Shown here piece by piece: positions 23,894 through 59,630 of a DNA stretch of 64,000 nt (position 1 is the first letter of the stretch; each line of letters begins with the position of its first letter). The position numbers were made by a program, and so were the translations under genes. Source of the DNA: Paracoccaceae bacterium (GTDB taxonomy: Bacteria > Pseudomonadota > Alphaproteobacteria > Rhodobacterales > Rhodobacteraceae); the NCBI GenBank assembly GCA_014654775.1, contig JACVZW010000007.1:384580-448579 (forward strand), in the 5' to 3' direction. The notes beneath the pieces were generated by a model. That model was not told the origin of the DNA and searched no databases. It was given only the letters and a program-made list of their open reading frames with translations.

Positions 23894-23915
23894 GAGTATT
23901 TGGGCCAAGATGAAG
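23894..23915 (-). repeat. family B repeat, reverse orientation (B1)
   Basis: GAGTATTTGGGCCAAGATGAAG, exact reverse complement of B2. Confidence 0.85.
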
Positions 23916-23926
23916 AGGCAAGATCA

Positions 23927-23976
23927 CGCCGCATCCCGTGCCTAGGGCTTGGCTATCCGTCGGGCGGGATGCGGCG
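23927..23976. repeat. inverted repeat inside the B1-B2 interval
   Basis: CGCCGCATCCCG (23927-23938) and CGGGATGCGGCG (23965-23976), perfect 12-bp arms. Confidence 0.7.
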
Positions 23977-24054
23977 CTTCACCTTGGGCGGTCATCGGCT
24001 CTCCAGCCTGTACCGCTGGGGTGAGGCTGACGGGAAAAGATGAAGAAACCGTTG

Positions 24055-24076
24055 CTTCATCTTGGCCCAAATACTC
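24055..24076 (+). repeat. family B repeat (B2)
   Basis: CTTCATCTTGGCCCAAATACTC. Confidence 0.85.
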
Positions 24077-24124
24077 TGGGGGTCCGGGGGTGAAACCCCC
24101 GGGAGGTTGGTCTGGGAGGGCCGC

Positions 24125-34111: not shown

Positions 34112-34133
34112 CTTCATCTTGGCACAAATACTC
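34112..34133 (+). repeat. family B repeat (B3)
   Basis: CTTCATCTTGGCACAAATACTC, one mismatch to consensus. Confidence 0.85.
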
Positions 34134-34180
34134 ACCTTGCACCGCCCACCGTCCGCGCCATCGCTCTGGGACGGGGTGCC

Positions 34181-34224
34181 TCTCCCTCCCCCGCAACGTG
34201 GGGGAGGGTCGGGGAGGGGGTGCC
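34181..34224 (+). repeat. family A repeat (A2)
   Basis: CCCTCCCCC-gcaacgt-GGGGGAGGG then tcGGGGaGGGGG. Confidence 0.85.
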
Positions 34225-46650: not shown

Positions 46651-46672
46651 CTTCATCTTGGCCCAAATACGC
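46651..46672 (+). repeat. family B repeat (B4)
   Basis: CTTCATCTTGGCCCAAATACGC, one mismatch. Confidence 0.85.
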
Positions 46673-46711: not shown

Positions 46712-46760
46712 GCACCTCCCCTCTCCCCCGCACGGGGGGAGAGGGTCAGGGAGAGGGGGC
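46712..46760 (+). repeat. family A repeat (A3, variant)
   Basis: CCCTCTCCCCC-gcac-GGGGGAGAGGG then tcaGGGagaGGGGG. Confidence 0.82.
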
Positions 46761-49990: not shown

Positions 49991-50012
49991 CTTCATCTTG
50001 GCCCAAATACTC
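49991..50012 (+). repeat. family B repeat (B5)
   Basis: CTTCATCTTGGCCCAAATACTC. Confidence 0.88.
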
Positions 50013-50056: not shown

Positions 50057-50086
50057 CGTAGGATGGGCCATCCGGCCCATCCTGCG
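50057..50086 (+). repeat. family C REP-like element (C2)
   Basis: CGTAGGATGGGCCATCCGGCCCATCCTGCG; GTAG head plus palindrome, matches C1. Confidence 0.88.
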
Positions 50087-59519: not shown

Positions 59520-59541
59520 CTTCATCTTGGCCCAAATACTC
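59520..59541 (+). repeat. family B repeat (B6)
   Basis: CTTCATCTTGGCCCAAATACTC. Confidence 0.88.
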
Positions 59542-59580: not shown

Positions 59581-59630
59581 CGCCCTCCCCTCCCCCGTTC
59601 TTCACGGGGGAGGGGCCGGGGGAGGGGGTC
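59581..59630 (+). repeat. family A repeat (A5)
   Basis: CCCTCCCCTCCCCCG-ttcttca-CGGGGGAGGGG then ccGGGGGaGGGGG. Confidence 0.85.

Follow-up and report, generated by a model that had tools for sequence, protein, structure and literature searches.

An oriented 22-nt motif in Rhodobacteraceae genomes with species dialects and hairpins at two preferred distances

Motif B, a 22-nt sequence made of two constrained blocks, CTTCATCTTGG (11 nt) and AAATACTC (8 nt), separated by 3-4 freely varying nucleotides, occurs in about 80-120 copies per genome, prefers the 3' ends of genes and is spelled differently from species to species. The best explanation, which is held tentatively and falls a little short of probable, is that B is a dispersed recognition site for a putative co-evolving trans-acting factor, located at the ends of transcription units beside hairpins. 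That such a factor exists and reads B is slightly more probable than not, and is suggested by the way in which the spelling of B changes between relatives.

Copies of motif B, hairpin spacing and two forms

The window, i.e. the whole 64,000-nt stretch of DNA that was analysed, held six copies of B at no more than one mismatch, four of them exact, where 100 dinucleotide shuffles gave an expectation of 0, and all six lay where a first-pass annotation had placed them (Table 1). In the window's own genome (G000; 4.52 Mb in 93 contigs), 84 copies were found at up to two mismatches, and the gapped core CTTCATCTTGG-N{0,6}-AAATACTC matched 85 times; the reversed control returned 0. The 11-mer CTTCATCTTGG occurred 102 times, mostly within B. 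The total thus comes to about 85-95 copies, mostly intergenic, or one per 45 kb. An open-access literature search found no description of B, and the strings CTTCATCTTGGC, AAATACTC and GAGTATTT returned nothing relevant among the matches listed. A reading of B as a hairpin in its own right (TTGG-C-CCAA) was ruled out, as the middle is freely variable and, in inverted pairs, frequently non-complementary; B has no conserved self-pairing and does not form the stem-loop with a tetranucleotide foot that characterises REP/RAYT elements.

Table 1. Copies of motif B and associated features in the window
Feature	Positions	Strand	Remarks
B1, exact	23894..23915	-	between the end of a zapA-like gene and a conserved 6S-like ncRNA
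B2, exact, of the hairpin-adjacent form	24055..24076	+	
Type D G-run/C-run hairpin beside B2	24084..24102	+	
B3, middle CAC, reads TTGGCACAAATACTC	34112..34133	+	divergent phasin-like/lgt spacer
Spacer R after B3, variable, 47 nt	34134..34180	+	
Palindrome A, REP-like, after B3	34181..34224	+	arms 34184-34192 and 34200-34208
B4, variant AAATACGC	46651..46672	+	whole site missing in G259, G264, G252 and G250
Palindrome A after B4	46716..46760	+	not found at the B4 locus in G255 or G089
B5, exact	49991..50012	+	downstream of a groEL-like gene (named from a C-terminal reading only)
Palindrome C (GTAG-headed) after B5	50058..50082	+	
B6, exact	59520..59541	+	7 nt past a stop codon
Palindrome A after B6	59586..59630	+	

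The interval between B1 and B2 (23916-24050) is conserved and non-coding, with a zapA-like gene upstream and a glutathione S-transferase-like gene downstream, and is kept even in G250. It looks like 6S RNA; Rfam gave no match for it or its surroundings around B1 and B2 at E<=1, and no match anywhere in the window at gathering cut-offs. Ends of zapA-like genes followed by B sites were seen in other genera too (L256, L261).

Palindromes were assigned by simple definitions to type A (CCCTCCCCC...), type C (GTAGGATGGG...) or type D (GGGGGGTSCGGGGGG...). On the AAATACTC side, 33 of the 90 B sites in G000 had one of these within 160 nt, 25 of them at 43-50 nt, eight at 1-3 nt and none elsewhere; the other 57 sites had no A/C/D palindrome, and some of these carried other hairpins at the same positions. 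Measured by one fixed rule from the end of B, the window palindromes begin at 47 nt (B3), 44 nt (B4), 45 nt (B5, type C) and 44 nt (B6). The distance of 47 matches that given in the first-pass annotation, and the two 39s reported there correspond to 44 here and reflect no more than a different choice of palindrome start. A scan independent of palindrome family, for perfect hairpins with an arm of at least 7 at 175 B sites in four species, found 29 hairpins starting at 45-54 nt in the 96 sites with a CCC middle, and 30 starting at 5-14 nt in the 79 non-CCC sites, with 15 in CCC-middle sites; on the opposite side of B, the same 175 sites showed no such peaks. Since hairpins of any sequence peak at two positions just as the A/C/D palindromes do, the spacing rule is genome-wide and independent of palindrome family. 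The near-constant spacing with interchangeable right halves, initially proposed for the window, is therefore a property of the genome. On the two points that the first-pass annotation had named as decisive, the outcome is split: distances are far from random, but the majority of B copies (57 of 90) have no A/C/D palindrome.

Two forms of B can be distinguished by their middle, albeit not absolutely. After form 2 (middle CCC) there usually come an A, AT-rich bases and a loose GC-rich block, in this order, and in many copies a hairpin some 45 nt away, whereas form 1 (other middles) is often directly followed by a G-run/C-run hairpin, e.g. GGGGGTCCGGGGG...CCCCCGG; the hairpin of B2, about 1 nt away, reads GGGGGTCCGGGGGTGAAACCCCCGG. 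A hairpin right after every B was considered and found not to be universal, with a mean folding z of -0.6 on the right vs -0.3 on the left, and is mainly a feature of form 1. Of 88 sites, 18 belong to inverted pairs whose members are separated by less than 60 bp, usually with form 1 facing form 2. Such a pair appears to consist of two separate sites and not of a single structure, because its middles are often non-complementary. The second form with its hairpin at 1-3 nt, the inverted pairs, the dialects and the strand bias all go beyond what had been noticed at first.

Further recurrent sequence was seen around B. Four copies with their spacers stand in tandem at locus L030 (G000 C19, about 73.7-74.0 kb), in steps of ~120 bp, in one orientation and with the GTTCACCTTGG variant. 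TTAAGGTTAA lies 7-16 nt past the GAAG end of several copies (e.g. L064, L073, L075, L018 and L261), also in another genus, and 9 of its 29 occurrences are no more than 80 nt from a B. GCCTCCGGCGG (or CCTCCGTCGG) immediately precedes GAGTATTT in many genera (L250, L255, L259, L267, L269, L276) and forms a third recurrent flank.

Species dialects, site turnover and mobility

Comparison of 31 orthologous pairs of sites between G000 and G089 showed 99.0% identity over the 19 core positions. The neighbouring 30 and 40 nt reached 73% and 77%, and flanking matches 86%; the core value is an upper estimate, because the motif itself served to locate the sites in both genomes. A direct reading of the six window sites in relatives agrees with this core constraint. 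Within it, each lineage has its own spelling: AAATACTC in G000, G089 and G255, AAATACCC in G251, G259, G258 and others, CTTCATCTCGG in G249 with position 21 mixed, and CTTCATCCTTG or CTTCACCTTTG in G250. At position 21, the own clade has T where its sisters have C, at 13/13 (G259), 5/5 (G264) and 5/5 (G252) orthologous sites, and these 23/23 comparisons share window loci among the three genomes and do not amount to 23 independent sites. At the lgt locus (B3), the rare middle CAC was kept across the T/C change, and this site was thus mutated in place and not replaced by another copy. Concerted substitution of this kind across scattered sites is indicative of either a trans-acting reader or drive: the spelling has changed in step at conserved places, species by species, so something appears to read B, and the reading would matter either for the cell or for the propagation of the motif itself.

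Relatives of B occur in some two dozen Rhodobacteraceae genera. An exact-dialect search (6 of 249 genomes) had given the misleading picture of a patchy element, and it was relaxed patterns that revealed the dialects. The pattern GAGTATTTN{3,6}CAARRWGAAG was present in 24 of 150 family genomes, several of which had only one to four copies, with up to 149 copies in one genome and 0 in reversed controls; its spellings are genus-specific, and genomes with no match may have further dialects or may lack the motif. In two genomes that have a main replicon, it carries nearly all of the sites (99/100 and 28/28; p=0.005 and 0.03). A plasmid origin was ruled out given the depletion of sites off the largest replicon, as was a phage origin, with 14 matching stretches among 2.9 million viral contigs.

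B and its palindrome are separable parts in a fixed positional relation, as B persists without a palindrome at two loci. At lgt, G000, G089, G258 and G259 have palindrome A, G252 has a degenerate one, and G255, G256 and G264 lack it but keep B; at the B4 locus, where four relatives lack the site altogether, G255 and G089 have B without A and only G000 has both. Sites are collinear between G258 and G259 over the 600 kb that were compared by hand, and no gained or lost sites, sought there in order to define an insertion unit, were found in that interval. Of 30 G259 sites sampled, by contrast, only about one in three was matched by a B at the corresponding place in G000; many sites thus turn over in the longer term.

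These observations bear directly on a mosaic mobile repeat (BIME/REPIN/PATE-like), a rather unlikely alternative in which B, spacer and palindrome would be small elements inserted via the single-stranded lagging-strand template, with B as the terminal or binding part for a transposase. Such a repeat would account for the fixed spacing and relative orientation of B to several palindrome families, the gain of the B4 site in one clade, the tandem array at L030, the spacer with A that recurs as one sequence at different loci and in G252, and a strand bias resembling that of lagging-strand-targeting elements (PMC6006769). However, B is constrained and mutates in place, its sites are stable between close relatives, and palindromes come and go without it. 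Moreover, no Y1 (TnpA-REP) transposase (PF01797) was found in G000, and none of 19 congeners had one above the cut-off (18 had no match and the remaining one a sub-threshold match only), while control genomes were positive. The first-pass proposal of one functional or mobile unit is therefore borne out with respect to fixed spacing, but B without A, collinearity, in-place conservation and the missing Y1 transposase all speak against a single mobile unit.

A DUS-like watermark, whose sites would be kept and homogenised via a receptor that takes up or transfers DNA of its own dialect and would have no cellular function where they stand, is improbable. It would explain in-place species dialects, inverted pairs near gene ends as found in DUS (PMC3630211) and the tolerance of intergenic positions, but not the 22-nt length, the fixed hairpin rule, the strand bias, or a number of ~100 copies in place of the thousands of DUS per genome (PMC3630211).

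Gene context and strand orientation

Gene context was assessed with a codon-based gene caller made for this analysis. B prefers the 3' ends of genes and its orientation is not tied to gene strand: tandem spacers contain 29 sites in one orientation and 22 in the other, convergent spacers 25 and divergent ones 6. Six sites were called within genes, the case of B5 being a start-site error. Flanking genes of all orientations, as reported at first, were confirmed, although divergent (promoter) spacers contain fewer B sites than their share of intergenic bases would predict (6 of 82 vs about 26%), and the gene context of these 82 sites supports the earlier view that the module is not a single gene's promoter.

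The enrichment at gene ends would also be expected of an intrinsic terminator or 3' UTR RNA element, in which a hairpin followed by GAGTATTT would end or stabilise transcripts. On the GAGTATTT strand the hairpin does lie upstream of a T-rich stretch, and some loci have a classic hairpin and T-run just before B. This explanation is nevertheless quite improbable given an orientation independent of gene strand in tandem spacers, the many CCC-type sites without a close hairpin, a T-rich-adjacent hairpin in only a subset of sites, a constraint that reaches 22 nt past the hairpin, and dialects that it leaves unexplained.

B is found predominantly on the C-rich strand, in line with the direction of replication. 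In G000, 59 of 70 solo copies were on the negative-GC-skew strand, in both gene directions (p=4e-9). Along the closed chromosome of G089 (3.90 Mb), B sites form three long runs, on the minus, plus and again minus strand. A single partition with two switches accommodates 73 of 89 solo sites; 300 permutations reached no more than 41 vs 57 observed. GC skew in sampled stretches broadly tracks this partition, though weakly near the presumed terminus. Skew was positive on the GAGTATTT strand at 24 of 28 sites in other genera and 24 of 30 in G259. With origin and terminus placed by skew and not by genes, GAGTATTT-N3/4-CCAAGATGAAG points mainly from origin to terminus. On base composition alone, 60-62% (intergenic) to 74-76% (third positions) of motifs of this kind would be expected on the favoured strand; the own genome, at 85%, exceeds this expectation, G089, at 70% by local skew, does not, and at weak skew no strand bias is seen. 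I regard the orientation of B as real, while strand composition may be part of its cause, perhaps largely so in G089. As a separate observation, third-position GC skew was about 0.3-0.5 at many B loci of the own genome, in both gene directions.

A KOPS/SRS-type replication-polar guide, read by FtsK or another translocase, is very improbable: about 80-85% of copies have GAGTATTT...GAAG on the leading strand, possibly in part for compositional reasons, and B is enriched on the main replicon, but B has 22 nt, is sparse and is evenly distributed between origin and terminus (KS p=0.52, G089), where KOPS have 8 bp and become denser towards dif (PMC5357621), and neither hairpins nor a 3'-end preference are KOPS features.

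A putative reader of B and comparison with known systems

If B is a recognition site for a trans-acting factor, as preferred here, the reader would most likely be a DNA-binding protein that contacts CTTCATCTTGG and AAATACTC across the unread middle. Its specificity would shift in a lineage and the sites would follow by point substitution in place, giving rise to dialects; a middle that varies between 3 and 4 nt is unusual for one rigid protein and counts against a single rigid reader. The likeliest specific mechanism would be that bound B acts as a boundary or roadblock between transcription units, as suggested by the avoidance of promoter spacers and the position of B beside hairpins at transcript ends. 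The hairpin might pause or protect the arriving transcript, and the orientation of B might leave the passage of the normal replication fork unhindered. Both the roadblock role and the permissiveness towards forks are guesses, and unlikely ones. It is similarly unlikely that the whole amounts to a family-wide Rhodobacteraceae system, with one dedicated co-evolving factor and ~100 oriented sites, many of them hairpin-paired at the two distances, as polar boundaries of transcription and replication, which would be a previously undescribed form of genome punctuation. The dialects offer a direct route to the reader, namely a protein with a preference for the spelling of its own species and with DNA-contacting residues that vary along with that spelling.

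None of the known families compared has all of its own defining properties in B, and REP/RAYT, KOPS and DUS each lack a defining one. B resembles REP/BIME/REPIN elements and their RAYTs (PMC2817692, PMC3116915, PMC3733652) in having ~100 copies, intergenic and close to gene ends, and in its inverted pairs and its association with palindromes. It differs from them in being non-palindromic, constrained at orthologous sites, subject to in-place dialects and in one orientation to its palindromes, with no RAYT found, and a REP-like GTAG head belongs only to the separate palindrome C. With the DUS of Neisseriaceae (PMC3630211) B shares lineage dialects and inverted pairs near gene ends, and differs in having roughly 20-30 times fewer copies, a longer two-block motif, hairpins at fixed distances and a strand bias. 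The leading-strand orientation of B is comparable to that of KOPS/SRS, with SRS reaching up to 85% (PMC5357621); unlike these, B is long, of low density and without a gradient to the terminus, and it occupies intergenic positions together with hairpins.
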